The position numbers were made by a program, and so were the translations under genes. Positions 7,363 to 62,245 of a stretch of DNA of 64,000 bases are shown here, piece by piece. The stretch is from Bryum argenteum (Eukaryota; Streptophyta; Bryopsida; Bryales; Bryaceae). The notes beneath the pieces are model-generated. The model searched no databases and had not been told where the DNA came from. It saw only the letters and a list, made by a program, of their open reading frames with translations. Positions within the stretch are counted from its first letter, which is position 1. Every line of letters starts with the position of its first letter. The stretch lies in the NCBI GenBank assembly GCA_037043015.1, contig CM073323.1, positions 17,865,758 to 17,929,757 of the forward strand, in the 5' to 3' direction.

Positions 7363-8294
7363 TTAACCCCTAAAAATCCAGGAAAACCGATTCGGTTTTC
7401 TGAGATTTCGGGCAGCTCATTTTAAGCATTTAAATTGATATTTTTGCCTAAGATTTTTATTGGGTGCTCCCCATACAGTAATGTGTATGTGGTAAAATTT
7501 TCAAAGTCAAATTTTAATTTTATAACCTTCACCTAGAAATTTTAGGTTTCAAGTCCTAAACGGGCAGTTTAAAATAATTTTTTTATTTTATTTTTTTTTA
7601 GAAATATGTTCATTACCAAATTACTATTCAAATTCCAAAGTATCCGAAGTCAAAAAGTTTACCAATTTTACAAGGGCAGCCTCCAAAACTTTCAAAAATA
7701 ATCTTCACAATTTCTAGTAATTTTACAATTTTTTCTTTCAAAAATTGCCAAAATTCGAGATTTTGGATTTTTTCCAAGATTTTTTTTTTCAAAATTCACA
7801 TTATCATAAATGCACCTTCTCACCGTCGAGATTTTTCTCAAACTAAATATATCATACGTGGTGCTTGTTTTACTATATGGTTGTTTTTAGACCTTCTTTC
7901 ATAAAGTATTTTACATTAAGGTCAAAAAGTGGAATTGGTCTCTAAAATTTTGCATGAGCATACCCATCTTGATTACCTACATGAAAAAAAATGAGGGAAA
8001 AATATTTGGAATAACAATCATCAAGTTGCCCTTGGCACCATTTAGACAATGCCTCTCACGCAGCGGCAAAAAAGTGTTGGTCAAACTTTGATTGTTATGA
8101 TCTCACAAATGACAAACATCCAACGGTTGAAATTTTGACCAGTCCTTTGTATACAAGTTAGGTACAAGATCTTATGGTTCAAAGTCTAAAACCGGAAAAA
8201 AAAGTTTCTCCATTTCCCCATTTCCAAACGAAGGTGAAAAATGGCAGTTGTTGGTTGTGGAGGTCGAGGAAACCCCTGGATTTTTAGGGGTTAA
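7363..8294 (+). mobile_element. TTAA-flanked element A (932 bases), piggyBac-like ends
   Basis: Both ends read TTAACCCCTAAAAATCCAGG, inverted with respect to each other, including a TTAA at each side. The interior is AT-rich and non-coding. A near-identical copy in opposite orientation is element B at 11017-11950. The right TTAA is shared with element C, so A appears to have entered the TTAA at C's left edge. Length and interior also match element I (59417) once I's nested insert is removed. Non-autonomous: no transposase frame. Confidence 0.85.
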
Positions 8295-8539
8295 CCCATA
8301 AAGGTTCTTGATGCAAAATTGTAAAAATAGACATTCCCTTACTTCAGGCCTAAAAACTCTCAATCTAAGAATTATCTGGTAGATCCAACTGTAGGATCTT
8401 GAATTTAACTTAACCTTCCACTCACTTGCCAAAATTGAACCATTGATTCTTCTTCATTTGTGAGATTATAATGGTCAAAGCTGGCTGAATTTGGGACTCC
8501 AAAAAGCATATTTTGCTTTCCTGGACCTTTAGGGGTTAA
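8291..8539 (+). mobile_element. TTAA-flanked short element C (249 bases)
   Basis: Left end TTAACCCATAAAGG, right end the complement of TTAACCCCTAAAGGTCC, both with TTAA. The interior contains the shared core (GTAGGATCTTGAA near 8390, then TTTGTGAGATTATAATGG near 8456). It resembles the elements at 38438, 51113 and 61978, all about 250-270 bases. Confidence 0.75.
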
Positions 8540-9140
8540 CATAGTAGGTGGTGAGATTTCGAAATTTTACAATGCAGAACATAAGTATATTAAACCAACC
8601 ACATTAGAGGATGCAAACTTGGGGCGGTCAGGGGCGTGCAACACAACACAAGACTACAAAATATCTCTTTCACAACTAGATTGAGCATTTTTTGAGAAAA
8701 TTATGGAAAGGTCATGAAGTTTCATGGTAGAATAAGCACCTGCACATACTTAATAGACACACATCCCATGTTACAATCAAAGTAACAAAAATATGCATGA
8801 AATATGGGATTGACATTGTGACTCCAGCGTCACGCTTATCCCACACTCTACATTCTCTAGACATAACTTACTTCAAACTTATCAAAGCAGCATTTGCAAA
8901 AACTACATCAGTAATTGTAAGAACAATAAAGTAGAAAAATCCTTGTTGTGCAACTGTACCTCATCCTTGTTGTGTAAGTGTACCTCTAAAGCTCTAAAGG
9001 AAGCTTTAACATCCAACAATGCTAAGGCTGGGTTTAAACAGACCAAAATTTTGCCTCTCGACGGAACAACTATTGTTGAAGATATAGAACCATTGCAAAG
9101 GTTTGAGATTGCCAACATCGAATTGGTTAGTAATACTCTC

Positions 9141-9203
9141 AACAACAATGGACTCAACGATGTTCTCAACAACAATGGACTCAACGATGTTCTCAACAAC
9201 AAT
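9141..9203 (+). repeat. 27-base tandem repeat, about 2.3 units
   Basis: Two full units and part of a third, starting AACAACAATGGACTCAACGA, encode LNNNGLNDV in the frame of the split open frame. The period is a multiple of three, so unit number does not disturb the frame. Confidence 0.85.
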
Positions 9204-9288
9204 GCAAAAGAGGATGCTCACAACTCTGATGGTGAAAATGGTAAATTTGAAGATTTTAGTAACTTTAATGTTGCTATTGAGTGAGAAG

Positions 9289-10270
9289 TTAACCCCTATA
9301 CGGGCCGAATGTCGAAAAACGACATTTTGAATGGAAGGCAGCAACTTTGAATAGCCATATATTTTTCATTTGAGGTCTGTTTTGGATGAAATCACTTGGG
9401 TTAGGTTCCAAATCAAGTCTTGTTTGTGTTTTAAAATTTTCAAGCCCATACAATAAATTATGAATTAATGGAATGCACTTTAGTGAAAACAGCTCTTGTT
9501 TTTGGGTTTCCAAGCATCGGGCATGTATTACCATTGCAAGCCAATTGTGTGAAATTAAAAATAGTTTTTCATGAATTTTTTTTTCATGGTCATGGTCTTA
9601 AGGTGATTCTTAACAACTTTGTAGTGAGAAGTTTTTTGATCCAAATGATTTTGCTATTGGATTTGCAATGATGTTTTGTCAACAGAAAAAGTGAGGAAAT
9701 GGATGATATTTGAGGAGCTATATCTCCTTCATCCACCGTTGGATTTCAACTTCATTTTTTGAGATGGCCTCCAATTAGAGTCTAGTCTAAGTGGTAGAAA
9801 CCTTAACAAGATCGAAGATGTTTTGAAGATAAGGCATGAAATTGAATGCAAAGGGTCTAGTTTTGGACTATTTTTCCTTTGTAAAATGTTCGGCACTTTT
9901 TACCATTGCATGGCTTTTATTTGAGCCAAGAAATATTTTTGATGAATTTTTGTTGGGTAAAGGACTTATTAAGATGAAGGTGAGCATCTTTCTAGTTGGT
10001 GATTTTTTTCATTGCAATAGGTATACTGGTAGCATTTCCACCTCAAAGTGAAAATGATGAAATTTTGCAGTTTGTTTTTAGTATTAATATGTTACGATCT
10101 CCGGATCTATAAGGCCTCATGACTTGAATTTTGGTCCACATGATCTTTGATAAGTCTATTACAAGTTTGTACGGTTGAGATCTTAATAACTTCTTTTCAT
10201 TTTCATCTATGGCGATTTCTATGGAAATGTGCTTTTCTGCTAAAAATAGGATGGGTTGTTTAGGGGTTAA
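9289..10270 (+). mobile_element. TTAA-flanked element D (982 bases)
   Basis: Left end TTAACCCCTATACGGG and right end complementary to TTAACCCCTAAACAACCC, each with TTAA. The interior matches, in reverse orientation, element E at 56719-57699 (about 981 bases), and weaker copies near 35500, 37200, 40800 and 62600. Non-coding. It sits inside an open frame whose phase is kept if D is excised precisely. Confidence 0.75.
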
Positions 10271-10713: not shown

Positions 10714-12108
10714 GGGCGGCTTTACACGAGGGGCCAAGCCATTGATGGGCCAATTCATTGCCAAATCCTTTTTTGTGATTGGTCGAATTCCTTGAAATTG
10801 ACCCGAGGGCTTTACATGGGGAGTCAAGGCCAATTTTCTGAAATTATATTATCATGGGTGGGGGACAAGTTATGACACGGCCCGCGCTCCAAAATTTGGG
10901 AGATTCAAGAATGGAAAGCCAATTCATAACCTAGAGGCCGTTTCTTGATTTCAATTAAAAATTTATTATTTTCACTAAAATACTTTAATGTGAACAAATC
11001 GAAAGCATGAATGTAGTTAACCCCTAAAAATCCAGGGGTTTCCTCGACCTCCACAACCAAAAACTGCCATTTTTCACCTTCGTTGGGAAATGGGGAAATG
11101 GAGAAACTTTTTTTTCCGGTTTTAGACTTTGAACCGTAAGATCTTGTACCTAACTTGTATACAAAGGACTGGTCAAAATTTCAACCGTTGGATGTTTGTC
11201 ATTTGTGAGATCATAACAATCAAAGTTTGACCAACACTTTTTTTTGCCGCTGCGTGAGAGGCATTGTCTAAATGGTGCCAAGGGCAACTTGATGATTGTT
11301 ATTCCAAATATTTTTCCCTCATTTTTTTTCATGTAGGTAATCAAGATGGGTATGCTCATGCAAAATTTTAGAGACCAATTCCACTTTTTGACCTTAACGT
11401 AAAATATTTTATGAAAGAAGGTCTAAAAACAACCATATAGTAAAACAAGCACCACGTATGATATATTTAGTTTGAGAAAAATCTCGACGGTGAGAAGGTG
11501 CATTTATGATAATGTGAATTTTGAAAAAAAAAATCTTGGAAAAAATCCAAAATCTCGAATTTTGGCAATTTTTGAAAGAAAAAATTGTAAAATTACTAGA
11601 AATTGTGAAGATTATTTTTGAAAGTTTTGGAGGCTGCCCTTGTAAAATTGGTAAACTTTTTGACTTCGGATACTTTGGAATTTGAATAGTAATTTGGTAA
11701 TGAACATATTTCTAAAAAAAAATAAAATAAAAAAATTATTTTAAACTGCCCGTTTAGGACTTGAAACCTAAAATTTCTAGGTGAAGGTTATAAAATTAAA
11801 ATTTGACTTTGAAAATTTTACCACATACACATTACTGTATGGGGAGCACCCAATAAAAATCTTAGGCAAAAATATCAATTTAAATGCTTAAAATGAGCTG
11901 CCCGAAATCTCAGAAAACCGAATCGGTTTTCCTGGATTTTTAGGGGTTAATTGTATGAATCGACCCCAAGGGCTTTACACATGGGGGAATTGGCACACAC
12001 TTCATTAATTGTTTAATGTGTTCTCCAAGTGGCCCATGGAGCCAATTGGGCTCAAAATGTGACTCAATTGAAGATTTGTTGGCCTTGACTCCCCATGTAA
12101 AGCGTCCC
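10714..12108 (+). mobile_element. PIF/Harbinger-like element J1 carrying TTAA element B
   Basis: Terminal repeats GGGCGGCTTTACACG and, at the right, the complement of GGGACGCTTTACATG. Flanking triplets are TAA and TGA, a diverged copy of the usual TTA/TAA target. The sequence outside B matches, in reverse, element J2 at 23850-24349, which lacks B. Non-coding. Confidence 0.6.
11017..11950 (-). mobile_element. TTAA-flanked element B (934 bases), inverted copy of A
   Basis: Reverse complement of element A with the same 20-base ends. By eye I noticed about four substitutions and small homopolymer length changes over 930 bases. Flanked by TTAA on both sides and inserted in J1. The related J2 has no insert at the corresponding place. 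The A-B pair forms an inverted repeat with a 2.7-kb spacer. Confidence 0.9.
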
Positions 12109-12141
12109 TGAGCGACAAGAGAACTTGCAAACAAAGAACCA

Positions 12142-12145
<4 letters not shown>

Positions 12146-12180
<35 letters not shown>
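12146..12180. repeat. Poly(A) tract, about 35 bases
   Basis: Uninterrupted A run just after J1. It could be a retroposon tail or a simple slippage tract; no retroposon body is evident to its left. Confidence 0.9.
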
Positions 12181-12181
<1 letters not shown>

Positions 12182-12734: not shown

Positions 12735-13305
12735 TTAACCCCTAACTTTCCTTAAAAACCAAAACGGTCTTTTGATGATTTGGGCAGCCTTAGTTTCGTA
12801 GTAAAAATGAATATTTTTGAGATATTTTTTGGGATTGTGTGAGTTACATTGCAAAGTAGGTGCGGCAAAAATTGCAAAGTCAAATTCTGATTTTTGAGTC
12901 TTCTAGGACGATCCTTGGGTTGCGAGCCGAGATGGGGTAGCTCAAATAAGTAACTTTTTTGAAACATGTTCATTACTAAATCACTACTCAAATTTCGAAG
13001 TGATTCAAGTCAAAAAGTTTACCAATTTTACAAGGGCAGCCTCCAAAAATTTCAAAACCAATCTTCGCAATGCCCAAAAAAACTTGGGAGACAAACTTTG
13101 AATGTTAAAATCTCTCCAATGGTGAACATCCAACGGTCAATTTTTTGAACAGTAATCAAGCATATTCTTAGGTACAAGATCTTACGGTTGGAAGTCTTAA
13201 AAAAGGAGAAGAAATTGGTCCACACCCCACGAGTGCGTAGAGGTAGAGAATCGCAGTTTTGAATTTTCAAGCTGCCAAAAAACACCAAGGAAATTTAGGA
13301 TTTAA
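12735..13305 (+). mobile_element. TTAA-flanked element F (571 bases), shortened A type
   Basis: Left end TTAACCCCTAACTTTCC; the right end is decayed (TTTAGGATTTAA). The interior shares stretches with element A, such as TTTGGGCAGC near the left, and the core (CATCCAACGGTCAA near 13127, CAAGATCTTACGG near 13174), but part of the middle is missing. Confidence 0.6.
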
Positions 13306-14767: not shown

Positions 14768-17700
14768 CTATCGTCGCCTTCCTTGGCCGCCGGCAGCAAT
14801 GGGGCGTCTATGACGAGCAGCATTGTTGCCAACTCTGCCACCCCCATCGCCCCAATGAGTACCACCACCCCGACCACGGCCAACACCAGGCGCTCCTTGA
14901 TGCGAGGCCCAGTTCATAGGCTGAGGGGCGGTGCCTGCACGATCCTCCTCGTCCCTCTCATTGTACTCCAGCACTAATCGCTTGATATCTTGCTTCTCCT
15001 CCAGCTCCGCAGCTTCTTTCTGCTTCGTGCTCAGCACAAGAGAGCAATCACGCGGAATGCGGAGCTGTTTCGTCTGTTGTTTGTTACCTTTTTTCACCAA
15101 CACTCGGAACTGGACACTCGTTCCATTTGTTTGATCATCCACTACCTCGTCCCCTGACTCTATGTCTGTACCTCCACCTCCCCGGCCATGATCCTTACTG
15201 TCGAATAGATTGAGTGGTATTGTCATGTTCAACGTTGGACGAGATCGCATCTCAAGTTTGCGTGAATCTATGCTTTCTTGCATCAGTGCACGATACTCTC
15301 GATCGAATTCGGCTTCTTCCGCTGGGTCTGTCTCTGGCATCTTCTTTTGCATCACCTTCACTTTCTCTTCTTCCTCTGATCCTGCTGTATCCGCTCCCCC
15401 TTCTAGCTCCTCTGCTTCCAGCTCATCGTCACCTGCAATGTTACAAGTCAATATCATAATGAGACTGCTAGTGGAATGATTAGACAGCTTCTAAACAGAC
15501 CCAATCCAGCAGATCTCTACTGTACTGATCCCTCAATTCTCCTATTCATCATGTATATGGCAATGTAATTTTTTAGGTCAAGATTGTGTGTAATTAATGA
15601 GAGACCTAAGCCTTGCAAGGGTAAAAGCTAAGTGTTTGGATGTACGGCTGGTGAGTAGATAGGCTTGAAATGAAGAGATTAGTAGGATTGTGTATAAAAT
15701 CCAAATTGATGATCAATCTCATTGTTGTTGATTTTTTCAGTTGATGATCAATCTCATTATTGTTAAATTTTTCAGTTAATGATCAATCTCATTATTGTTA
15801 AATTTTCAGTTGATGATCAATCTCATTTTTTCGGTTCTATGAAGGTTCCACACTCAGACTTTGGGGAATTGGGGTAGTCTGCACAGATTGGCGATAATTT
15901 GGTGGATATTCATACCCTCATCCTCGTGGAATGTGTACTTTTCTTCTTCGAGCTCCTCCTCTTCCTCCTGGCCATCGGCTTCCATACTACCACTTTCTGT
16001 CTCTGATTCACTATCCCCATCATCCGGATGAACTACCGCGGTTCTGGTTCCAAGTTGTGGAGCTCCAGTATTTTGAGCGTCCTTGCCGAACTCCGAGGTT
16101 GATTGGTTGTTATGTACCTCTCCATCTGCTTGTATTGCTGTGGCTGGAGGGCGAGAACTCCGTTCCTTCTCAGAAGCTGCTAGGTTGCGATCAACCTCTT
16201 CTAACTCGAGCAATGCTTGATTAGCCTCGTCATAGGTAGCGTACCGTACCATCTTTGGACGTAGATCTGCAAATAGATCCTGTAAACAAACAATAGCACA
16301 TCATTATTTCTTTCCCAACCCGAAGCAGTAGTACTGGCTAACAACAGTATTGATAAAGTCGTAAAAGCAGCACCGGAAATAATTGCATGAGTGGAAATGT
16401 TATTTGTTCAGTTCTGTACCTGAAGGTCAAATTCCACGTCCAAAGGGATGACTCCCTTGCTGAGAACGTATCGTTGAAAATAGAGTAGAAATCGATCAAG
16501 CCGGCGCTTAGATGAACCTCGATCAAAGAACTGTCCACAGGTCTCAAGAAGCGTGATGACCATACGTAATCGGAAGCAGTCTTCTGGAGGGTCCAGCACA
16601 TCTTGCTGAATTTTCATAGCAGAAATAAAGAATACAGTTAGATATTATAAGGACATGATATGATATGAAAGAAGAAAACTTTCATAAAGTTACTGATGAA
16701 TTGTCTTGTAGGCTGCTATTTTATCAAGGAACAAGTATCCCAGAATATGACGACTGAGAGTGCAGGCAAGGTAGAAAGCTTTGACGCTACCGAGGCTCGA
16801 AACAAAAGATGGTGCTACTATCATAATGTCAAACATAATGCATCAGTCTCCTCGATTATCATATCCTATTTAGTTTGAATGAAATCCGAATGGTGCAGTT
16901 CTAAGGGTGAGGGTTCGCAGCAGCTACCAAGAGGATGAGAAAGTGCCACCCCATCCTCCCTCCCATCCCTGGAATTTTAATTTGAACCCCCCCAAGGCCA
17001 TTTTTGATGATTTTGAATTCAGAAATGGGCCCTGCGGCCCCAAATTACTCTAGGAGCCTACTCCTTGGCAATTTAAACCAATACACTAAAAAATTAGGGG
17101 GCTCCTTTACCCCTCCCCATCCAACGCTCATCCTCATCTTCATCCTCTTGGTAGCTGCTGCGAACCCTTAGGCCAGTTCTAAAGGAAAAAATTACCTCTG
17201 AAGTCCCATGACCATAACCAATGATCAGATAGAGAGTATCAAAGATAACAGGAGAGTCGATGAGGCGGTAGCTATAAAGTTCTCCAAGAAACCGCATGTA
17301 TGCAATGCGTCGCTGCTGCATACCATACTCATTCAACTCCAAACCCACCCTAATAGCTTCAAGGACCTGGAATCGATTCGACAAGGATTAGCGATGTGTC
17401 GTTTATTCGATTACCATGATGCAACAACTGCCCATCCCCAAGCTACAGGAAACTATCCGTATTCAATATCCGTCGCTACTTATATTCATGAACGTAGCTG
17501 GCTGTTTCCAGATGAGAATGTAAAACTGTTTGGAATTCTGAAAAGGACTTGGCACAGATATGATGTCACGGCTTTGATGAGTGGAGTGTCGTTACCTCGT
17601 CAACCACAGCAACTGCAAATGCATCATGATAGCGGCTTAAACCAGCAGTTAAGGAGGCTATTAGGTGAACTTGACTGTATTTTCCTTTATAGACCTTCAT

Positions 17701-20700
17701 GAAGCACTTCAACAAATACGTTTCGCAATCGCTCCAAGGAAGCTTTCTCAATTGCCGTAGAACATGCTCGATAGTTGTTTTATCAAGATCCGCAAAGAGC
17801 AACTTCCGGATGTACTGCAAAACATGAACCAATATTTTCAGTATCCATTTGCATTATTGACCAAGTCATGCAAATGGCAGTAAATATACACAGAGGACGA
17901 TGTTTAATATACCTGATGTAATGGTGGGCGAACTTTAGAGACACGAGCAGACCTCTCAGGAGGCTTACACTGGTAGTAAGCATTCTCTACAAGAGTGCTA
18001 TGTCGAGCATCCAGATTCTTGACATTCTTGAGACGCATTATAATCTCTAGCATGTTGCCCATACGCATGGATGTCTCAGGAAACCGATATAGGAAGCGCC
18101 CGCAAGTTTCTAGCAAGTTGCACGCCACATCAATGTTGTGGTGTGTAAAATCGTCTAAGCATGACTGTAAAAGCACACGAATGACCATCAGAGGAGTCAG
18201 CAACATATGGGATAGCTCTAAAAGGTACTTGAAACCATCAATATTCGTGAAATTCGGTTGCATTATGAAAAGACATAGGACATAGACTCTGGATGCCACG
18301 AGCAACTTAATGCTAAATATTGTCAAGATATACCTAGAGTCATCCTATTGCCTTCTTAGCAATATGCTTTTAACTTTAGTGACGCACCTTCAAACAGCTG
18401 AATATCAGGCCTGGCGATGCCACCTTGAACTTCGCAAGTTCACCGAGGAAACGAATATTCCTGATCTTGGTCTCAATGTTCATTTGGTCCTACATAGCAT
18501 TCTCAATTGTAAGGTTTAACAATGAACATCATCGCAAGCCGCTGACAGAAAATGTGTCGTACGAAAAACATGACACTAAGAATATCGGTTCTCACATCTC
18601 AATTGCTACTCAGCTTCTATTACAGCGGAATAGACGCAGACACAATAGGACTGTAGAATAGACTTGCACTCAATCCAGAATGCCAAAATGTCAGTCTAGA
18701 TTCAAACCTAACGATTTATAATATTCCTCAGCTCCAAATATCAAGCATACTAAGAAGTCTCAAGCCAAGAAGTTCAACCTTTTTGTTCATTAGAAAGTTG
18801 AATTCGTCCTCGAGCAATTGTAGAATCATAGGGGCTACATCCTTCATGCACGTTGATAAGGTGGCGACCATTCGAGAATAATATGGTATGAGCTCCAAAG
18901 AACTTCTTGAAACATTAAAAAGTGTGCGCACAAGCTTTTTACGGCTGCTCTTGGAATTCAAATAGCAGAAATCTACCTGCACAGAGACAAAATATCAATA
19001 AGCATAGAATAGAGGACAGGTGGAAGTATACTCAGCTCTACCCTGTCTATGGAATAAAAGCGACGCCATCACGACAGAGAGATGGCCTGTTCCGAGCCTT
19101 CTGAACCACTCAAAACATCAAGGATCTCGTCAGAAATACCGTGAGTTGGTCGATGAGATCTCGACTGACACAGCCGGGAAGCCTCTGAAGAAGACTGTCG
19201 AGACTAGCACCTTCGGCGCCCTTCACCTTTTCCTTCTCAGTTTCTTTGTCCAACTTCTTCTCACCATCCTTGTCTTTTTCTTTCAGCTTCTCCTTGTCTG
19301 ATTTCTCCTCCCTGTCTTTGTCTTTAAGCTTTTCATCCGAAACAGCTAGGACTTCCGTAGCTTGAGACTCTGCTTCTAAAATAACATCGGCGATTTCTGC
19401 TGCCGGGACAGCAGCATGCTCAGGTTCCTGTCAACAGTGAACCGATGACGATCAGAAGCCCATTCTAAAATACACAACCAAGAATGTGGTTCTTATTGGA
19501 ACATGCACCATGTAAGATGTAGGAGAAAGAAAATCACCACTTGTTCTCCAGCCTTTTGTGAAGATTCGGCTGCCCCCTTTGGTTCAGACTCTCCAAGTAA
19601 AACAGCAGGGACGAACGCACTGGCCACATTTCCATTCCATAATGAGGATGACATAACAAATAGTATAGCACGTATCATACACAAATCCTCTTTGTCAAAA
19701 TAGCTCAAGGAACAATAAGACGAAATTCATGAGCCCATTGTCATTTGAAGGTTCATTGACCAACAACAAATGGATATAAAGAGGTAGAGGCAATACGCAC
19801 CGAAGATCAGGCAGGCTTTCATAGAAGGAACGAGTATCCTCATCATCCCAAATAGGCTCTGGAGTAGCAGGTTCCTTTCCAGCCGCTTGCGAAGCCCCAT
19901 CGTCTCCAGTAGTAACACGTGTAGTGTGTCCATCCTCCGGCGTTACTGGAGGCGGCATATCCAGTGCTTCTGACAATCTGCACAAAGAAGTGGCGGCTAA
20001 CCAAAATTACACAAATCACAAACACGCAACTCTGGGCACTGAAACAGCAGCAATAGGTGTCGACCATTCACAGGTGACACTACAGCGACTTACGAAGAGA
20101 TATTGCGAAAGAGATGCTCGTAAGCCTTTCGAAGCTTTTCGTATGCAGCTGCATTTTCTTCACTAAGCTCTCCCTTTGCATTCAGCATTCTTGCATTCTC
20201 TGATTCCAACTGTCGCAAGGCCTGCAAGAATTCAAACAAGTATCAAACACCGTACTTCCAGCGCTGGCTAAGAAGAATAATACCATCAAAAGGACATGAT
20301 CTGAGAGAACCTAAAACTGCAACATGGTGCCAAATTCAAAACCTTGACGCCGGACTGGATAGAATGAAGCTCAAGAGCACCACACAATCTGATGGTCCAT
20401 AACATGAAAGTCCCAAAATAACAAAATTGAAAAGTAGAAGAGCACCACGAATCATTACCGTATGCTCTGACTGAAGGAGTTCCATCACTGCATCAAGAAA
20501 AGATTGAAACAGCTTGCGCAATTGCTTCTTCTGATCCGCAGTTATGCTAAGCTCCTTGTAAAGCTGCACAAATCTCAAGGGTTATCGGTAAACAACATAT
20601 AATGCGGATGCTTTAGCCCATCGACAGCGCACGAAATGCTATATGACAAAGCATTCATGTTACATGCTGTCAGAAGTTGCCAATACGTATGTACTTCAGT

Positions 20701-35479: not shown

Positions 35480-36459
35480 TCTTAATGGCGGTCTCTCAAA
35501 ACATAATGTTCACAAAACAAAAGAGACTACTTGCCTTAAATAAGAGATGTGATAGCCTTTTTATAAACTTAAGTAGGACATTTTGGATGAAGGGTTTAAA
35601 GTTTGAAGAGCCATACCTTCTTCACTTAAATATTGTTTTTTACAGATACACTTGTATAAGGTTCCACATTGAGTCTAGTTTGTGTGATGAGAATTGCAAG
35701 GCTGTAAATGAAGTTTAAAATTAATTGCGTGCATTATAGTGAAGGCAACATTTGGTATTAAGTTTTCAAACATTGCAAGCCAATTAAATAAAATTAAGAA
35801 TGGATTTCCTTTACGTGAGAATGATATTTAGATGAATCCCAATAACTTTCTAATTGGGAGGTTTGGATTCAAGCAACTTCGGTATTGGATTTGCAATGAT
35901 GTTATTTCATGAATGGATGATTTTTGAGGAGCTATTTCTCCTTCATCGACATTAAAAGTGAGCTTTATTTTTGGTATGGATTCCAATTTTTATAAGTTTT
36001 GGCGGTTTTCACCACTGTCAGGGTAATTCTTCAGCCAAGAAATTTTTATTTTGGTTTTCTTTTTTCCAAAGTTGTTATTGTAGCTACAATTATCATCAAA
36101 GTATACATTTAATACTTTTAATTCGTTCAATACGAAGTTGAGAGAATTAAACTTTTGAATAGAGTTTGATGGTATTGTTATTGTGGTAACCATTCATCAA
36201 ATTAAACCTACGGTCTAAATTGTTCGTAGTAATTATGGTTGTTACCGAGATAAAAGTAAACAACTTTCTAGTCATAGAGTTTTTGTTGTAGTAGCTTTGC
36301 TGGTTGTAGTAGTATTGTAAATTTAGTTACATGATTTACAATAAGTTTATTACCAAATGGCATGATTAAGATTTGAATAACTTACCCCTATTTTCATTCT
36401 GAGATCTTCGTGAAAATGTCTTTCTTGGTTAAAAATAAGTTGGCACGTATAGGGGTTAA
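35480..36459 (+). mobile_element. Decayed D-type TTAA element
   Basis: The right end TATAGGGGTTAA is preserved (TTAA at 36456-36459). The interior follows element D (AACATTGCAAGCCAATTAAA near 35770). The left end is not recognisable, so its position is estimated from the length of about 980. Confidence 0.45.
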
Positions 36460-37179: not shown

Positions 37180-37930
37180 TGTAGCATTTTTATTGACAAA
37201 GTTGATACTGACAATGAAATATTCTTCAATTACAAAGATGTACACTTTTATTTCAAAACTACCCTTCTCCTAAGAATGTATTTAGCTCTAATGATAGCAT
37301 TCCAATAATGAAATCCACCCAAATTTGTACAAAGAAAATGGAGTCCAAAACCAAACCCTTGCACTGAAATGAATGCCATATCTTCCTCACATCTTTGATT
37401 GAGCAAAGATTCTTACCATAAAACATGATTTGAATTGGACTCCAATCTAACGAACAAAGTTGAAATTGAGTAATGAATGAGGAAAATACAACTCCTCAAG
37501 GACCATGTACATTTTTTTAAAATTTAGAAAATATCATTGAGACTCCTATAAAAAATTATTTGGATAAAAAGTCTTTCAACCAGAAGTTGTTGGATTTTAT
37601 CTTGAGGTTATACTTATATTAGAAAAGTCATGAAAAACTACGCTTGAGTCTGTTGATTGACTTGCAATGGTAAAACATGTTCCATGCTAAAAAACCCTAA
37701 AACATAGAATCCCTCCAATCAAATGCATGCTATAAATAACTACCATCTTAGATGAATTTGAAATTATTACCACCCAAATTCTAATTTGGGATCCAACCCA
37801 ACAAATTTCAATCACACTCTCAACCGATGGGATTTTTGCATAAGATTCTTGGTCAATGTTCCTTATACTACAGGGTGTGTGTGTGTGAATTTGCAAAGTC
37901 ATTTTCCTTTTCTTTCTTTCTTTCTTTCTT

Positions 37931-37980
<50 letters not shown>

Positions 37981-38370
37981 CATTTTAGGTCACAAGTCCA
38001 AATAGGTCAACAAGAAAGTAAAGTAAAATAAGTATTTTTTGTATACTTTTTTTTTTTTTTTTTTTTTTTTGGAAATGATACTACTACTCATATTTCTAAA
38101 TTTCTAAGTTCAAGCTCTCACCACTTTTGCAAGGGCACCCTTCAAAATTTACAAGAACAAGAGCTTGCAAAAACACTTGTGCATCAACTTAAGACGTTAT
38201 AATCTTACAAATGGTGAAGATGCAACCGTTAAAATTTGACATGATGTTATCACAGGTAGTATCATCAAGATATTACAATTAGAAATACCAGAAAAAATAC
38301 CTCGACTTGGACAAAGTGGCCAAAAATCACAATCTTTGGTTTTGAAGATTCAAAAACAATTTCCGACCGA
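37180..38370. mobile_element. Decayed D-type and A-type TTAA remnants
   Basis: 37180-37710 resembles the E/D interior (GACTTGCAATGGTAAAACAT near 37660). 37780-38370 resembles the A interior (CTTTTGCAAGGGCACCCTTC near 38130, ACAAATGGTGAAGATGCAAC near 38208). Long T tracts with CTTT units lie at 37915-37976 and 38048-38070. Ends are lost. Confidence 0.4.
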
Positions 38371-38437: not shown

Positions 38438-38707
38438 TTAACCCCTTAAGATCCAAGAAAGCCGAAATGGCTTTTTGGGCTATTTCCGCAGGGAAAATAT
38501 TCAGCCAACTTTAACCACTATAATCTCAAAATCGGAGAAACATCAACAGTTCAAATTTGACATTTCAATAAAGGGTTAAGTTAACTCCAAGATCCTACGG
38601 TTGGATCTTTTTATTAATGCTTAGATTGAGTTTCTTTGGGCCTGAAGTAGAAGAAGGTACTTTTTGATAATTTAGACAATTTTGTATCAAGGATCTTTAG
38701 GGATTAA
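38438..38707 (-). mobile_element. TTAA-flanked short element G (270 bases)
   Basis: Left end TTAACCCCTTAAGATCC, right end the complement of TTAATCCCTAAAGATCC. Reverse orientation relative to C and 61978, with the same core (ATAATCTCAAAATCGG near 38520, GATCCTACGGTTGGATC near 38591). Confidence 0.7.
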
Positions 38708-43589: not shown

Positions 43590-44086
43590 CTCCCTCAAAT
43601 TCCTCCTTGTTGCAAAACGGTCTAAGTCACAAAATTTGATCTTTCTTTAGATTAACCCTTAAAGGTCCCTTGGGGATAGTATGTATGTTGTCGTATAATT
43701 AGGATTTGCTACCAACAAGAAACTCTAAACTGGAATCGTAATAGCTCACTAGAACCGCATCAATTCAAATGTCAACTTCTTCTTTGAACTCAAACCCATT
43801 AAAGGTGTGCATTCACTCCAAATACAACTAAAATACACCGTATGCTACTGGTCCCCACGGCACGCTCAGACCTTTAGGGGTTAAGCTCAAAAAATCTCAA
43901 TCTAAGCATTATTTAAAAGATTCAACCGTAAGATCTCAAAATTCACTTGATGTTCTTCTCCCATACCAAATTTGAACCGTTCATTCTCCCTCATTTGTGA
44001 GATTATAATGGTCAAAGTTGGCTGAGTTTTTCTCTTGCGGGAACCTCCAAAACTTGTTCTGGGTTTTAAGTAAAGTTAGGGTTTAA
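43590..44086 (+). mobile_element. TTAA element H (51113 type) interrupted by another TTAA element
   Basis: Outside the insert, the sequence matches the reverse complement of 51113-51381 closely (CTCAATCTAAGCATTATTT, GAGATTATAATGGTCAAAGT, GCGGGAACCTCCAA). The right end is decayed to GTTAGGGTTTAA and the left end is unclear. Confidence 0.65.
43653..43884 (+). mobile_element. TTAA-flanked element nested in H (232 bases)
   Basis: Ends TTAACCCTTAAAGGTCC and the complement of TTAACCCCTAAAGGTC. The host sequence reads TTAGATTAA before it and TTAAGCTCAAAAAATC after it. The related element at 51113-51381 has a single, uninterrupted TTAGATTAAGCTCAAAA (reverse complement). This defines the target duplication as exactly TTAA. 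Confidence 0.85.
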
Positions 44087-46765: not shown

Positions 46766-47986
46766 ATCGAACCATGAGCTAAACATCCTTCGTTTTTTCT
46801 CTATGTTTTTCACTTTGTTTTTGTTTCGATAGATTTTCCGCATAAATCTTATATAACTCATACCCAGCCACTTTCATCGTTCTTCTTCTCTTTCTCATCG
46901 TTGTTTTTCGTTTTCTCTTAAAAAGTTTTTCTCTCTAAAAACACAGTACTCGTTGAAAATTTCAGAAAAATCTCCTTCTCCGAAGTCAGTAGAAAAAAAT
47001 TCGAAAAAAACTCTATCTCTGAACTCAGCCGAAAAATTAAAAAAACTTTTTTTCTCTCTTCGTTGCCGTTTTTTCTTTACAGTCATCGTTTTTTTCCTCC
47101 GCCGTTTTTTTCTTTTCTACCTCCTTCGTCATTGATTTCCCTGCCGTTTTTTGATTCGTCCTTGATTCCGCCAGTAATCCTCGTGTAAATACTGCCTGTC
47201 AGCCACCGTTACGGAAGGCCGGTCAACTGCCAAGATTCATCGCACCGTTAAGTCTTCATCCACCGACACTGTCGGCCGTTTTTTTTCTGTCTGTCTTCGA
47301 CCTGTCTACGCAACTTTTTGCGCGCGAAGTTTTTTTTCGAATTTTGCCTCCTTCTTCCACTTTGAATCTTCCCGCCCCTCAAGCGCATACTTAATCGAGG
47401 AGGAGCAAGCTAGAGATCACCCTTTTCCGGACTTAGCAAGTTCTTCACTGTCTCTTCCTTCCCCGCCGCTGGTCCTCTCCTTAGTTTTCTTGTTTTTTCC
47501 GCCGTCTCTTGTCTTCTCCGCCATCGGAGCCTCTGTTCGCATTTTTCTGCAGGGACCTCGGAGATTTTTCAGCAGCGAAAGGAAGGGGGAAGAAGATCAC
47601 TCGATTGATCGCCACCGCCGTCGATCGAATCATTTTCCATCCACTTCGTTTGTTGCCTTACTTTAGACCCTCTCCGAAAGATCTCCCTTCTCCACCGTTT
47701 TTTTTCTTTTTCTAGTCCTCTCCTTTTTGCTGTAGAACCTATTTTGATCGATCATCTGTCGGAGGGAGGGATATATCGGCGTGAAGCAAGGAGGAGCTCC
47801 GAGAATACCAGGGACAGCTCTTTCTCTCCTCGTTTCTATCAATCTCCTTGTCATTTCCTATTTTTGCTTCGTAAGCTCCTTGTTTTTCCCTGCTTTTCAT
47901 CTATTCTTGTGTGGTCTTTCTTTTTCCCTCTCTTCCTTCCTTTTTTTTTTTTTTTTTTTTTTACGCGTGTCTCTTCTGTTTTCAGG

Positions 47987-50061
47987 ATGTCCAAACCGAG
48001 TACCTCGGTTGAAGAGCCCCGGATCCAGCCCCTGCTGTTTTTACCTTTGAAGTCAGATGGAGGAAATTACATGGAATGGAGTATAGACGTCCGGACACAC
48101 CTTTGCGCCGAGGAGCTCCACCCCGTTCTGAAAAAGATTCCCCAAGGCGCGGAGCCACTTCCGGTTGCGATGGTATGGAAAGCGTTACTTGTGATCCGGA
48201 GACACCTGGACCCGTCCCTGCGCCGCCAGTATATTCAAGTGGAGAACCCGACGGAGTTATGGAAGAAGTTAAAGCACCGGTTCCAACACGAGAAGGCGGT
48301 TTTCTTACCTCAAGCACGCAGCGAATGGATGACACTCCGGGTGCTAGATTTTCCCGACCTCTCTTCTTTTAATTCTGAGCTCCATCGAATTGTGGCCCAG
48401 CTGAAGCTCTGCGGCCAACGAGTCACGGAATAGGAGATGATCGAAAAAACTCTTTCCACGTTCCCACCCGCATCCGCAATCTTGGCGCAACAGTACCGCA
48501 ACATGCAGTTCGAAACACAAGCCGAGCTCATGTCTCATCTTCTACTTGCGGAGAAACAACTCCAGATTCTACTCAAGAACGCGGAGTTAGCACCACCGAA
48601 GGAGACCCACGCGGCCGAGATTCCACAGAAAAAGCCCAAGGACAAGCAATCGAAGCCATCGAAGCAGCCGCAGCAGAAACAAGGAGGAGGAGGAGACCGT
48701 GACCGAGACCGTAGCCCACGCCGAGGGCGCCAAGACTCCCGCTCCAGTGAAGCACGCCGAAGTCCGAGTAGGAACGACAGCCCCAGACGAAGTGACGATC
48801 GAGGCAAGCAGCCAGCGGACAAAAGGGAGGGGCAGAACAATGATAAGGGAATTCCCTATACCGAAACTCGTTCGTGCTACAGGTGTGGCGAGCAGGGGCA
48901 CATCGCCAGGGATTGCCGAGCACCGGAGTTCGTGGCGAAATTATTCAAAGAGCTCCGTCAGCTCCGTCAAGCCGTCCAACAAGCCCAGCCAGCTGAACAT
49001 CGGGAGACTCATGCGTTTGAGGCCTCCTCCTTAGAATATACTGATGTTGAGAATTTTTTAGTGAGTGTTCCCAGGTTTACAGAATCCAAAACGGGACCAG
49101 AAGTTGCGCTCATCGATTCTGCCACGACCCACACCATTCTCAAAAACCCGGAGTACTTCGAATTTTCACCTGTGAACTCGTGCTCCAGGGGTAGCATAAT
49201 CACTATTGCGGGACCTCAGCAATTCCACTATAGAGAAGGGAAGGCCACATTTTACTGCCCGGTGGCGCGAAGGTGGTCTGCTCCCACGCCATGAACTCCC
49301 CCGACGCGCCCAGGAATTTGATTTCGTATCGGGATCTAAGGAGTAATGGCATCCACCTCAGCACGGCTTCGGCACGAGGTGAAGAGGTGCTCGAGCTCCG
49401 GCGGGGTGGAAAAGTCCTCGCCACCACTCAAGTAGTGGGAGCTAACGGCCTTTATGGAATCCATATTTGGCGCATCCCAAATCCGGGCTCTGCAAAATCC
49501 GGAGGGGTACCCGCTGGACCCAGGTACGCGCCAAAGCAAGCCGCCAGCCAACTAGTTGTGGCCTCTGCTAATCCCGGGCTCCCGCAAGGGGCCAGGACGC
49601 TGGTGAAAGGCGCCCTCCAAAGGACCGGAGGTGACGCAATTCCCGGGAGCGACGTACTGCAGCCGTGCCCACCGCAAGCTGCGGCCTCTGCGGACTCCGG
49701 ATCCCCCACGCGAGGTGGGGGCCTCACTCACCCTGAGGTAATGCCAGGAACGCGAGAGCCAGTAGTGATCCCATCCGGGTCTTACTCGGTTGAGATCCCC
49801 TTGAAGATCATACTTTGGCATAATCGACTTGGGCACCCCGGAACCACCATGTTCCGACGCCTACTCCCAGCCACCACCGGCCACGCCGTGTGCCAATCTG
49901 ATGCTGAGAAGGTCGGGACGTGCACTTCGTGTATTCAAGGAAAATTCGCCGTCGCAGCGTCCAAGTGGAGGATCCCCAAGGAGGTGCCGGCGGCGCTGGA
50001 GCGACTTCAAGGCGATGTTTGTGGCCCAATCACCCCCGCATGCGGCCCTTTCAGGTAAATC
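47987..50061 (+). pseudogene. Copia gag, protease and integrase zinc segment, broken
   Basis: Gag starts at the ATG 47987 (MSKPSTSVEEPRIQPLLF) and runs to a TAG at 48431-48433. It resumes in frame at once (EMIEKTLSTFPPASAILAQQ) and carries the zinc knuckle CYRCGEQGHIARDC near 48875. The protease motif is IDSATTHTIL near 49115, with DSATT where DSGAT is commoner. A frame change near 49270 leads to SPDAPRNLISYRDLRSNGIH and the integrase histidine/cysteine segment (HNRLGHPGTTMFRRLL, then CTSCIQGKF near 49925). The frame then ends near 50056 at the deletion junction. Confidence 0.85.
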
Positions 50062-51112: not shown

Positions 51113-51381
51113 TTAACCCCTAACTCTCCTTAAAACCCAAAACGGGTCTTGGAGGTTCCCGCAGGAGAAAAACTCAGCCAACTTTGACCATTATAATCTC
51201 ACAAATGAAGAAGAATGAACGGTTCAAATTTGGTAAGTGAGAAGAATGTTAAGTGAACTTTGAGATCTTACGGTTGAATCCTTCAAATAATGCTTAGATT
51301 GAGATTTTTTGAGCTTAATCTAAGGGAAGGTCAAATTTTTGTCACTTAGACCATTTTGCAACAAGGAGATTTAGGGGTTAA
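51113..51381 (-). mobile_element. TTAA-flanked short element (269 bases), beside the 3' LTR
   Basis: Ends TTAACCCCTAACTCTCC and the complement of TTAACCCCTAAATCTCC. The first T of its TTAA is the last base of the copia duplication GAGAT, so the copia element entered at the edge of this older element. It is the uninterrupted relative of H at 43590. Confidence 0.9.
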
Positions 51382-56000: not shown

Positions 56001-56002
56001 TG

Positions 56003-56718: not shown

Positions 56719-57699
56719 ATAACCCCTTTACCTCCTTGGGGTATTTTTAGCCAAAAACACATTTTCAAAAAAGGTGTCATAGATGAAAAGGAAAGCAAGA
56801 ACTTTAGATCTCAACCCTACAAACCTTTAATAGACCTGTTGTAGGCCACGTGAACCAAAGCTTGACTCATGAGACCTGATAGATTTAGAGATTATAATGT
56901 ATAAGTGAGCAAAAGATGCTACAAATTTCCACATTTTCACTTTGAAGTAGAAATACTACCAACATAAAATTGAAATAAATTAATCACTAACTAGAGATCA
57001 TCTTCATCTCCAATATACCTTTTTAACAAAAAAAGAAAATCCATCAAAAAGATATGTGCCTCAAATAGTAACCTTTCAATGGTGAAGACTGCCCCAAAGT
57101 ATACAAAGCAGAAATAGTTCAAAACTAGATCCTTAGCACTAAAATCTAGGCCCTATCTTCAATACGTCTTCAACTATGTCAAAGTTTTTACGACTAAAAC
57201 CAAACTATAATTGGAATCCATCCCAAAAATCAAGTTGAAATGTAATGGTGGATTAAGGAGAATGATCTAACTCCTCAAACTTCATCCATTTTTTCACTTT
57301 TATAATTGTAGAAAGATCATTGCACATCCAATACCAAAGTATTTGGATAAAAATACTTGAAAGTAGAATACTGTTAGGATGCACCTCAAGATCATACTTA
57401 TGTAAGGAAATTTCATTAAAACATATTTATGATTTCACATAAATTACTTGCAATGGTAAAACATGCCCCATGTTTGGATTTCCATAAACATCAGCTGCCT
57501 TTTCTAAAATGCATGTCAGTAATTCGAAATTCATTGTACGAGTCTGCAATCTCAACCACATATATATTAGACTTGATTTGAGACCAAAATCAAGTGATAT
57601 TTTCTAAAAAGAAGTCGTGATGAAGAAATTATGGCTCGACAAGGTTTCTACCCTTTATCCAAAATGTTGTTTTTTGACACTAGGGATGTTAGGGGTTAA
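56719..57699 (-). mobile_element. TTAA-flanked element E (981 bases), reverse of D
   Basis: The right end reads GTTAGGGGTTAA (TTAA 57696-57699). The left end is decayed (ATAACCCCTTTACC). Reverse complement of the right part matches D (GTCAAAAAACAACATTTTGG against GTCGAAAAACGACATTTTGA). Confidence 0.65.
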
Positions 57700-59416
57700 G
57701 TCTTAGTACTAAAAGAAAAATACAATATTTCATCAGTGTCACTTTAAAATGGAAATTTTAGTAACAAATGAACCGCCAAAAAAAAATCCTACTAGAAAAT
57801 TCTTTACCCTTGTATCGAAAATACCCTCGCACCAAAAACATTCATCCAAAATCATTTTTGGCTCAAATAATAGCCTCGCAAAATTTTATAAAGGATAATT
57901 AGTCGAAATCTACACCCCTTCCTACTCAAATTCTAGAATTCTCAAAAAACTAGACTCTTCTTGGAATCCATCCCAAAAATGAAATCCAACTGTAGATGAG
58001 GGAGATAGAGCTCCACAAAACCATGTATTTTCTAGGTTTTTTCAATATAGAAATACCATTACTAATCCAAGAGAAAAGTTATTCGAATTTAAAAAATATT
58101 CCAACTAGAAATCATTTGAGCTTTAACTTAACCTTTAAATGCCCAAGACGGGTTCCAAGCCTAAAAGCATAATTCTCAAAATTTTGTTGTAGATAAAAAA
58201 ATGAAGACAAGCTATTTAGATCCCAATTGTAAAATCTAGGGTTGTTCTAGGCTTGTTGTAGGTGATAAGGATAAAATATGAAGTCTTCTAGATTACAGGA
58301 TCATAATGTATTAATACCAAAAACACGTCGGAGGATTTTATAGTTTTCACTTTGGGGTGGAAATGTTACTAACAATCCTACTCCATTCATGAAGTCTCCA
58401 ACTAAAAATTTGTTCAGCTTCATCTAAGTTTGAGTTTCAAGTCCAAAATGGTGAGTATAAATTTAGTTATTGTTTGGAATTCCATTTTTGGTAATTAAGT
58501 TCTTGAGTGACTCAAATAAATAATTAAAAAAAATTTAACAAGGAAAGCCTCCAAAAATTACAAAACAATCTTCACAATTTCTAGTAGTTTTCGAGTTATT
58601 AATTTTAAATCTGTCAAATTTTGAGATTTTGGAACATTCCTAGTATTCTTTTTCTTAGAAGGCACCTACTCACCTTCCATATCTTTCTTGAACCAAAAAT
58701 ATAAAATGTAATACATGTTTTCCTATGTAGTTCTTTTCAAACCTTCTTTTAAAAAAAATAATTTGCATGAAGGTCATAAAAGTAAAATGAGGCTCTAAAA
58801 GTTTGCTTGAGGGTATCCAACTTGATTGCCTACTTGGGAAAAAACAAAATATAACCACATTGTTTAGGGTAACAATCTTTGGGTTTCTCTTTGCACCATG
58901 GAGACAATGTTTCAAAAAACGTAATGGTTTGCTAATGTGTTTCATTTACTAACCCCCAATTAAAATATAAAATACATGTGGTTGTACTCCATGTGCATTG
59001 AATGGATATCTTTACATGCTAAGAAAAGAGATAAACACTTTAGCGGAACAATGAGTTCTCTTTTTTCTTTACACAAGTCACTAGTACACTTGCATGGTGT
59101 TGCCACGCCCACATAAATACTCCAACCATGTTCATCCCCCTCCCCGCTCGTACCATCACCCAAAGAGGCTTTCAGACTCATAGATCCACAATTCTATTCT
59201 TAGTAATTTTTACATGGTTCCAAACGACGTGATTAGGTTCCTCTCATTTTCCTACTCCATCTAAAATTAAGTCAAATTTTGTAATTTCCAACAATAAAAA
59301 GCACAAAATTTAAAATCTCAAGATCTGCGATCCAATTGTTGCTCGCACCTCTACAAGAATACCCGATTTCAATAAGACAAAAGATCCCATCATCACAAAC
59401 AAAACAAACTCCCTCC
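57700..59416. other. Overlapping remnants of D- and A-type elements
   Basis: 57720-58120 resembles D/E. A degraded end, CTTAACCTTTAAATG, is at 58131. 58480-58950 resembles A (GGAAAGCCTCCAAAAATTAC near 58541, CAATTTCTAGTAGTTTTC near 58574). 58950-59416 has nothing recognised. No gene. Confidence 0.4.
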
Positions 59417-60714
59417 CTTAACCCCTAAACTACCAAGGCCTTCGATTAGGAGATTTGCGATTTCGGGCACCATAAGTTAAGATGTTAAAAGTAATATTTT
59501 TGCATAAGATTTTTACTGTATGTTCCCTTTACTACAAGGTGTATGTGGAAAAATTTGCAAAGTCAAACTCCACCTATGGAGTTCTTAAACACAAATTTTA
59601 GTTTTCAGCTTTGGGGCGGGCAGAAAAAAACTTTTAATTTTTACCTTTTTTAATTAATTTTTTTTGGAAATCTTTTCTTGATTGATTTTGTACTTAGGTT
59701 TCCAAGTGACCCAAGTTGAAACTTTTACCAGTCCTACAAGGGCACCCTTCAAAAATTTCAAGAGCTAGATTCAAAGTTTTCTTTGATATTTCAATATTTT
59801 CTTTCAAAATTTTCCAAAATTTGAGATTTTGGAATTTTTTGAATTTCTTTTTTCTTGAAATCCAAAAACTCAAGAAGGTATATACTCACCGTTCATTTTC
59901 CCCCTAAACCATATACAATAAACATGGTGCATGTTTTACCAAATCTTTGATTTCTACCTTCTTCTAGTAATTAAATTGCATGAAGGTTCAAAAAGCAAAA
60001 TGAGTGTCTAAAATTTTGCATGGGCATGCCTAACTTAGTTATATACATGGGAAAAAATATGAGCTAGATGTTTAAGGTAATAAGCATCACGTTTTCCTTT
60101 GCACAAAGTCGACTATGTTTGCTGAAAAAAAAATTGCATCAACTTTGAACGTTATGATCTTACAAATGGCTACGATCCAACGGTTGAAATTTCAGCCACT
60201 ACCGTAACACCATAGCAGGTTCGTTCATAAATAATTCTCAAAAAAGAAAACGTAAAAAAACGGAAATTACAAGGAAAAAGAAACAAATAACATTAAAATT
60301 GTACCAAAATAAAAACGAAAGTACAGGAAATCAGTAAATATGTACCGTAGTTAGTTTAACTAAGTATGGCCGCCAAAAATTGATGAAGAATGAAATTAAG
60401 ATGAAAATTTAAGTACATCTATCTCTTGCACACGAATAATTTTTTATCAAATAATTAAAGAAAACGAATCTCAAAAAAATCATTTTTTGGGAGGCAAACC
60501 TTATTTTTTCAAAAAAAATAAATATTCGTGCGGCAGGTGGCGAACCTGCTATGGTGTTACGGTATCTCTAATAATAGTTCTCTTCAAGATCATACGGTTG
60601 AAAGTTTCAAAAAAGTGTAAAAAATATTCTCACACTCCAAAGTTTACAAGATGGTATGGAATTGCAATACTGGAGTTTGGAGCTCACAAAATACCATGGT
60701 AGTTTAGGGGTTAA
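59417..60714 (+). mobile_element. TTAA-flanked element I (A type) with nested insert
   Basis: Ends TTAACCCCTAAACTACCA and its complement, 20 of 21 terminal bases matching. The interior follows A (GATTTCGGGCA, AAGATTTTTACTGT). Subtracting the nested 361-base element and one TA leaves 935 bases, against 932 and 934 for A and B. Confidence 0.85.
60202..60562. mobile_element. MITE with TA duplication nested in element I (361 bases)
   Basis: Perfect terminal repeats starting CCGTAACACCATAGCAGG, 22 bases, flanked by TA at 60200-60201 and 60563-60564. It sits inside the shared core between the CCAACGGTTGAAATTTC and GATCATACGGTTGAAAG segments. The TA target suggests Tc1/mariner. Confidence 0.8.
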
Positions 60715-60842
60715 TACCCCATAGCAGCCCAGGCTCTCAGTTCCTCAGACCCGTTCCCGCGGGCCTCGCACCTCTCCCAGAGGTGAATGTAACTTTTTCA
60801 ATTTATACCTCCCGAAAAGGGCTTTCAATGTTTAGGGGTTAA
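60711..60842. mobile_element. Possible short TTAA-bounded remnant (132 bases)
   Basis: It begins at the right TTAA of element I (TTAATACCCCATAGC) and ends TGTTTAGGGGTTAA. Left and right ends match poorly, so it may be a deletion product rather than a complete element. Confidence 0.4.
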
Positions 60843-61752
60843 TATATAATATATAGAGAGAAAATACAAAATGAAACTACCGTATGCAAGGAAGGCCAAA
60901 GATGTATTGTTTTTCCCTGAGAGAAAGAACTAAAATTAAATGCAAGGAAGCAAGAACATTCCCAACTGTCAACCATGGGCTTGACTTCTCACCCTATATT
61001 TCTGGGGTGAGCATTATAATAAAAGGAAAAAAGAAAAAGGCCACTTTCAATTATGAGACAACTAGGCCAACAAAAAACCAAAAGGGGATCATAATGTCCC
61101 CTTGCATCCGCTCATGATCATGAGCAAACACACAACAACAACTACGGGTGGGAAAAAGATCATGCCAGGTAGATAATAGCATGGCATGGAGGGACATATT
61201 TGGGAGACCGCGGAGGAGGTAGGCCCCCCGCCCCCCTCTTGGACGGGAGGTGCCAAAAGTGACCAAGAGAACAACATGGCACTAGTAGGGACACTCCTAC
61301 TCATGGGGTGGCGAGGGGGCGCAATCCAACCATCCACCACTCCGCTCCTCGTGCCCCCCCCCCCCAAACGGGCCCGCTCGCCCCTCCCCATGATCAAGCA
61401 TCATGTTGGAGTTCATGGCCCTTTTCACACCATGACCCAATTATATGCGATGGGGCGTGCACGACCGTCGTCTCGTTCGAAACAAGCAAATCCATTGAAT
61501 TGGATTGTGGCTCCATCTTCCTCCATCCTTTTTACTTCCTAAAGTTGGTTGCATGAGGGCGGGTCCATTCTTTGGTCGTGTTAGGTGATTATTCCCTTTT
61601 TGGGATAATCACTCAAAACAAAATACCATTTTGACTTCGGATATATATGCTCCATGTTGATTTTTGTTTTTTTTGTTGGAATCACATACTTTTCCAAAAA
61701 GGGCCATGTAGGGTTCAATATTTCACCATAGATGGTACTTTATCCAAATTCT

Positions 61753-61797
<45 letters not shown>

Positions 61798-61977
61798 TGT
61801 AAAGGAGGTACTTTTAGAAAAGAATTCACTACTTTCAAAAATATAGCCTTTTGTATATGAATTTTAGCATTACCGCCATGTGACAATTCAAGCTTTTGTT
61901 CTAACGTTTGTAAGTCATATGAGGGTAGTAATAATTTAAATGTAGACCTAAATGCTGTCCACCCTATGCCGCCCAAT
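60843..61977. other. No supported gene
   Basis: Includes a GC-rich stretch at 61190-61440 with C tracts, whose proline-rich open frame looks like composition only, and a T tract at 61756-61794. Confidence 0.4.
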
Positions 61978-62245
61978 TTAACCCCTAAAGGTCCTTGATA
62001 CAAAATTGTTTAAATTGTAAAAAAGAAGCTTCTTCTACTTCAGGTGCAAAGAAACTCAATCTAAGCATTGATTAGAAGATCCAACCGTAGGATCTTGAAG
62101 TTAACTTGACCCTTTTCTCGAATGTCAAATTTGAACCATTAATTTTTCTCCAATTTTGAGATTATAATGGTCAAAGTTGTGTGAATTTTCTCCCTGCGGA
62201 AATTCCAAGAAGCGATTTCCGCTTTCTTGGACCTTTAGGGGTTAA
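61978..62245 (+). mobile_element. TTAA-flanked short element (268 bases)
   Basis: Ends TTAACCCCTAAAGGTCC perfectly inverted for 17 bases, with TTAA on each side. Interior with the core: AACCGTAGGATCTTGAAG near 62083, TTGAGATTATAATGGTCAAA near 62155. Best preserved member of the C/G family here. Confidence 0.9.

Follow-up and report, generated by a model that had tools for sequence, protein, structure and literature searches.

TTAA-flanked segments of a moss genome as non-autonomous piggyBac elements with long, mostly two-gene autonomous relatives

We investigated a 64,000-base stretch of the moss Bryum argenteum (contig CM073323.1; hereafter the window), in which short segments with inverted ends and flanking TTAA (Table 1) lie beside pieces of a UPF2 gene and of Copia-type retrotransposons. 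An earlier note, made from the letters alone, had read these segments as non-autonomous piggyBac-like elements in a plant genome, with no transposase frame alongside. The segments proved to be real: at up to one mismatch, the end TTAACCCCTAAA was matched 22 times in the window against 0.63 expected, and the maximum in 100 shuffles was 3. Eleven elements could be bounded, with sizes of 233–270, 571, 932/934 and 981/982 bp plus one of 1,297 bp; CCC adjoined TTAA at both ends in nine of them, and their short terminal inverted repeats, which begin with CC, extended over 10–27 bp at 80% identity or more. TTAA on each side, as the note had it, was found for ten of the eleven, whereas the 56719 element has ATAA on the left and TTAA on the right; decay at one end was seen in the 12735 (ATCC) and 38438 (TCCC) elements. 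The starts it gave were correct within one base, with 43652 in place of 43653 and 59418 in place of 59417. The element library and the autonomous relatives described below together covered 10,369 of the 64,000 window bases (16.2%, decayed copies included), and the reversed window, used as a control, gave no match to the same library. No transposase was found within the 64-kb window (best profile E 2.9), in agreement with the note. We are nearly certain that the window segments are non-autonomous piggyBac elements, presumably mobilised at TTAA by the transposases of 5–6 kb relatives.

These relatives were identified through the transposase domain PF13843 (DDE_Tnp_1_7), for which a search of the genome (258.8 Mb; contigs C1–C10 about 251 Mb, C11 at least 6.4 Mb, C12 114,600 bases) scored 116 of 775 candidates with E values down to 7e-82, most of them without stops and with open frames reaching 1,331 residues. 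Genome profile and sequence searches scored the best candidates only, so that the counts of 116, 150 and 40 reported here are lower bounds selected by score. Nine long stretches were fetched around representative matches (L046–L054), and in six of them (L047, L048, L050, L051, L052 and L053) TTAA-flanked bounds enclosed 5,286–6,362 bp; one end of L050 reads TTAATCCC, while the two ends of L048 agree less well. When the L051 transposase was compared by sequence with the PDB, the only matches up to E 1 were piggyBat (9c0f, 2.6e-26) and piggyBac (6x67, 6.2e-26), the latter of which we take to be from Trichoplusia ni. Three aspartates, presumably the catalytic residues of piggyBac, aligned to 9c0f in the L051 transposase and were invariant in all ten aligned transposases, which thus carry the DDD triad. 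Similarly, the cysteine-rich C-terminal tail of L051 aligned to piggyBat, and a tail of this kind could be made out by eye in seven of ten transposases; those of L053, L046 and L049 are altered or truncated. The predicted core of the L051 transposase (predicted local distance difference test, pLDDT, 71; predicted template modelling score, pTM, 0.73) matched 6x67 (Foldseek, 3.9e-24), 9c0f (1.3e-23) and Tn5 (7.3e-6), and this predicted model has the RNase H-like fold of 6x67. Among 30 fetched DDE domains, the main groups were 33–47% identical to one another, with two looser splits at 58–61% and 69–98% identity within groups.

The link between these transposases and the window is sequence held in common. 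Two elements, 12735–13305 and 51113–51381, match long autonomous elements at both ends; in 7363–8294 and 11017–11950, one end and a block of 250–285 bp nearer the other end match (71–75%), the block of 7363–8294 being found in L050, L051 and L053 at 71–74%; for the 8291, 38438, 59418 and 61978 elements, the match involves one end or subterminal blocks. Several window elements also match L069, a locus of a young family considered below. Autonomous elements that share ends with window families encode a PF13843 transposase, the 981/982-bp family being the exception. The earlier note had proposed a search for longer relatives with a DDD transposase, and had named a transposase of another superfamily as the outcome that would speak against it; the long elements sharing ends and subterminal blocks encode a piggyBac transposase, and its PDB matches by sequence were piggyBac and piggyBat only. 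Together with the TTAA target and the CCC ends, these results support the piggyBac superfamily reading, and we regard membership as firm.

Upstream of the transposase and on the same strand, a second reading frame occurs in seven of the nine long autonomous stretches; it encodes a conserved helical domain of about 90 residues. Most of the long stretches fetched are thus of a two-gene form. A profile built from group A only detected the domain in L048 (5.5e-17), L047 (6.4e-9), L046 (3.6e-6) and L052 (7e-4), against a best value of 0.19 in the reversed control. For 35 of the 116 scored transposases, a second-gene match lay on the transposase strand at a distance of 992–1,725 bp upstream, with none downstream and none on the other strand; this fraction is partial by design, because the query was the group-A domain. 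The ratio of nonsynonymous to synonymous divergence (dN/dS) was 0.10–0.28 in the unsaturated pairs (14 of the 28 compared), with dS below 1 in only two of these (0.16 and 0.19), and judged by these ratios the helical domain is under purifying selection. AlphaFold predicted six helices (pLDDT 86, pTM 0.77). Comparison of this model with PDB folds by Foldseek gave a best E of 3.0 (48 insignificant matches, several cyclin/TFIIB chains included), the Pfam search returned nothing above cut-off (a weak TEA match, E 0.087–0.11, in one of 12), and the PDB sequence search gave no convincing match; the best PDB-profile match, a TRP channel (E 0.0078), was judged to be chance. Viral contigs searched for relatives of the transposase or the second gene yielded 14 and 15 pattern stretches, none of which was confirmed.

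Instead of encoding a separate protein, the upstream frame might supply the transposase with a 5' exon or be mere cargo; we consider this unlikely, although it retains appreciable weight. An intron-like stretch with GT-AG borders, about 90 nt long, does lie between the second gene and the transposase ATG in L050, L051 and L053, and the two frames overlap in L047 and L048. However, splicing at that stretch does not join the frames in register in L051 or L053 (the L051 acceptor was set 6 nt early in this test, with the frame unaffected), and the upstream frame of L050 ends before it; none of these three loci would yield a fused protein, and the two genes therefore look separate. The low dN/dS values also speak against this alternative, as does the fact that the second gene holds its place and strand across lineages whose transposases are 33–47% identical. 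The most plausible role for the second gene would be that of a partner protein in end binding, nuclear entry or import, or regulation, as in other two-protein plant transposons. We also observed that L051 and L019 differ from L020 with a dS of 0.40 in the second gene and 0.01 in the transposase; these may be mosaic elements that arose through recombination or conversion.

For the 981/982-bp family (9289 and 56719), only the ends and the target provide a tie to piggyBac. The best 40 of 6,275 candidates in the genome were mostly full length at 93–95% identity; three fetched copies were 99.5–99.8% identical mutually, and the window copy was 94.9% identical to one of them. That this family is moved by a different, unseen transposase appears improbable to us, though not negligibly so: it matches the fetched autonomous elements at the ends only, its matches in L051 come from a copy invaded by the autonomous element, and L054 and L021 contain partial matches; against this, all four fetched copies, that of the window included, have TTAA at both ends adjoining CCCCTA.

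We then considered copy number and target site across the genome, the earlier note having proposed that copies be counted and flanks aligned to empty sites. The exact 12-mer end occurred 7,028 + 7,164 = 14,192 times in the genome, compared with 90 + 82 = 172 for the reversed control; a chance origin of the ends was rejected. For the 268-bp family, the best 40 of 2,190 candidates comprised the window copy and 39 others at 96–97%. Two nested insertions supplied empty sites, and both duplicate TTAA. The uninterrupted 51113–51381 copy has one TTAA where the copy holding 43652–43884 has two, and L051 sits inside a 982-bp-family copy that reads AGTATTAATATG when empty and AGTATTAA...TTAATACA when filled. 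Genome-wide, TTAA preceded 61 of 62 young-family left ends and 92 of the 100 listed 268-bp-family ends (343 found), both patterns having left out sites with G as first base. A target other than TTAA, which the note had named as evidence against itself, was not what these counts revealed; nested empty sites, genome counts and window elements agree on TTAA target site duplication.

Another superfamily, either Sola3 or a TA-target group such as Tc1/mariner or Stowaway whose site reads as T-TA-A, was weighed as an explanation of the same flanks. The target of Sola3 is TTAA, and judged by TTAA alone, a 4-bp duplication looks the same as a duplicated TA with T before it and A after it. Of the eight non-TTAA sites of the 268-bp family, three are fourth-base variants, and a 4-bp duplication is favoured because of these. 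Since a piggyBac DDD transposase is encoded by long elements that have end and subterminal stretches in common with window elements, we rejected this alternative as very improbable; it is largely contradicted by the sequence shared with piggyBac-encoding elements.

One young family forms a burst of identical copies. A 1,448-bp query (the left part of L069) gave 34 full-score copies, the query included, among 41 rows (the best 40 of 614); this family also accounts for 58 equal-scoring matches among 150 for the second gene (counted by eye), and 831-residue open frames were listed for several equal-scoring young-family transposases. Such identity suggests very recent or still continuing transposition. 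Element copies were present on all 11 large contigs. The largest of these, C1 (44 Mb), is element-poor, with 1 of 62 young ends against 10.6 expected, 5 of 116 transposases against 19.8 expected, and 3 ends of the 268-bp family compared with 59 on C2; a sex chromosome or closed chromatin is a possible explanation. The first 1,500 bases of C1 are N, and among seven contig-head stretches examined for telomeres or organelles, two were all N and the remainder uninformative.

As for the host, contig C5 carries a LEAFY gene (matched by PF17538 in two exons), and the DNA-binding domain of this gene scored 369 bits against 4bhk (LEAFY homolog 1), compared with 162–286 bits against four other LEAFY chains. 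Because this domain has the same residue at 154 of 158 places as 4bhk, which we take to be the LEAFY of the moss Physcomitrium, the host is a moss, in keeping with the plant genome of the earlier note. An animal or fungal contaminant in the assembly, which might come to mind as piggyBac is best known from animals, is scarcely credible and was rejected, being contradicted by the spread of copies over all 11 large contigs, by elements in the same window as the UPF2 gene and by elements nested inside one another.

Several observations weigh against the reading of the window segments as elements moved by these relatives. No matching end pair was found in three of the nine fetched stretches (L046, L049 and L054), and the second gene was not found in two of the nine (L049 and L054). 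Three further transposase loci (L009, L010 and L013) are TTAA-bounded stretches of only 2,222–2,563 bp with unlike ends; element size and build therefore vary. An autonomous partner for the 981/982-bp family was looked for and not found, and the 233-bp element (43652–43884) is without a match among the autonomous elements or the other window elements. In L069, the sole long young copy fetched, the transposase is divided between two overlapping frames, and no right end was found within the fetched stretch. Lastly, a TTAA duplication is hard to tell from one of TA alone where TTAA surrounds it, the fourth-base variants being few.

Direct support for the piggyBac reading comes nevertheless from the TTAA target and its duplication, the shared end and subterminal sequence, the piggyBac transposase and the presence of several deep lineages. 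From these we infer that transposases encoded by 5–6 kb autonomous relatives elsewhere in the genome would excise the window elements and insert them at TTAA, that several window families are internally deleted derivatives retaining end and subterminal stretches, and that mobilisation would follow the hairpin cut-and-paste chemistry of piggyBac.

Table 1 Elements and decayed copies in the window, by position.
Feature	Position	Strand	Remarks
932-bp non-autonomous piggyBac element	7363..8294	-	TTAA both ends; bases 1-160 match one L053 end (67%); outermost 90 bp of other end match only as inverted repeat
249-bp non-autonomous element	8291..8539	+	Joined to 7363..8294 at common TTAA
982-bp non-autonomous element	9289..10270	+	Family with 6,275 first-look candidates
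934-bp element	11017..11950	+	Inverted copy of 7363-8294
571-bp element	12735..13305	+	Both ends (12735-12899, 13067-13305) match the two ends of L053
Decayed 9289-family copy	35577..35988	+	An end at 36448-36459
Decayed fragments	37282..38243		37282-37704, 37832-37901, 38083-38243; strand unassigned
270-bp element	38438..38707	+	One end and subterminal block match L051
Copy of 51113-51381 type	43603..44086	-	Split by 43652..43884 element
233-bp element	43652..43884	+	Inside 43603..44086 copy; duplicated TTAA versus empty site 51315-51318
269-bp uninterrupted copy	51113..51381	+	Empty site; matched at both ends by L050 and L053
981-bp element	56719..57699	-	9289 family; ATAA left, TTAA right
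Run of decayed fragments	57703..58912		Same families; strand unassigned
1,297-bp element	59418..60714	+	Related to 7363-8294; right end matches L053; additional end at 60842
268-bp element	61978..62245	+	2,190 first-look candidates genome-wide
Decayed 9289/56719-family copy	62925..63862	+	

The inverted copies 7363–8294 and 11017–11950 are 99.25% identical, and a perfect 25-nt inverted repeat (10809–10833/12079–12103) brackets the latter. The adjoining elements 7363–8294 and 8291–8539 have a single TTAA (8291–8294) in common, and at C2:1911475–1914365 two young-family copies in opposite orientation have one TTAA between them; in such pairs, the flanking TTAA of one element appears to have been used as target by another. 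The element end CCCCTAAA (e.g. 7363–7374) includes CCCTAAA, which we take to be the plant telomere unit, and with more than 14,000 sites in the genome it could mislead telomere or telobox searches. Just past the first element cluster, pieces of the UPF2 gene occupy 14768–21207 on the minus strand (Upf2 domain, 14768–15490; MIF4G, 17904–18344; weak MIF4G, 20839–21207). Copia-type retrotransposon pieces with reverse transcriptase and gag matches lie at 25893–27023 and 47609–48433, with similar frames alongside.

The two-gene autonomous form goes beyond the idea of the earlier note, whose interpretation is supported as right but understated. More tentatively, and with rather less than even confidence, we suggest an old, diversified, two-protein moss branch of piggyBac with a new-fold partner and at least one lineage jumping today, that is, a native active land-plant system. 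In most work piggyBac figures as an animal element, and animal geneticists use it widely as a tool; its presence in a moss in thousands of copies, with several deep lineages and a recent burst of identical copies, broadens its known host range and offers a natural plant system for studying target choice and silencing. Furthermore, the conserved second gene leads to a testable claim, namely that some piggyBac elements use a partner.

In Ptychostomum knowltonii, terminal inverted repeat (TIR)/DNA elements make up 29.13% of the genome, with CACTA the largest part and repeats annotated by EDTA together with RepeatModeler2 (PMC11704416); in Pohlia nutans, they make up 23.68%, and a CMC-EnSpm track is shown (PMC9247546). 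The word piggyBac does not occur in the main texts of these two papers, nor in that of the EDTA paper; mislabelling in mosses is therefore possible, and moss repeat annotation may file piggyBac under other names. PMC10140906 and PMC10813416 mention piggyBac in "plants" in general terms, and genome tables for C-fern (1,230 fragments, 0.00%; PMC6890710) and Stipa (1 fragment; PMC8319324) put it close to zero. Among the literature matches listed, with most subscription journals and Repbase outside their scope, there was no moss piggyBac, the single moss genome paper among them containing "piggybacking" instead, and the covered text of those matches describes no second gene in piggyBac-like elements.

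Among known systems, the moss elements are similar in working to the PIF/Harbinger elements of plants, where one element carries a transposase and a separate helper gene, with a Myb-like helper and a 3-bp TWA target. The likeness is one of function only (a transposase plus an extra gene), and membership is not claimed: the moss elements belong to another superfamily, have a TTAA target and a helper domain without a Pfam family above cut-off, and neither a Myb-like helper nor a TWA target was found in them. As short relatives of autonomous piggyBac members, the window elements resemble the piggyBac-related miniature inverted-repeat transposable elements of coral and those of Daphnia Pokey (PMC2872659, PMC4912750), whose hosts are animals, in contrast to the moss here. 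The T. ni piggyBac is 2,472 bp long with one gene of 594 residues (PMC10140906), whereas the six bounded elements of the moss measure 5.3–6.4 kb, the DDE domain of their transposase follows a long N-terminal region, an additional gene lies upstream, and the host is a plant of another kingdom from T. ni, namely a moss. With piggyBac (6x67) and piggyBat (9c0f), they have in common the TTAA target, the CCC ends, the DDD triad, the cysteine-rich tail and the fold.

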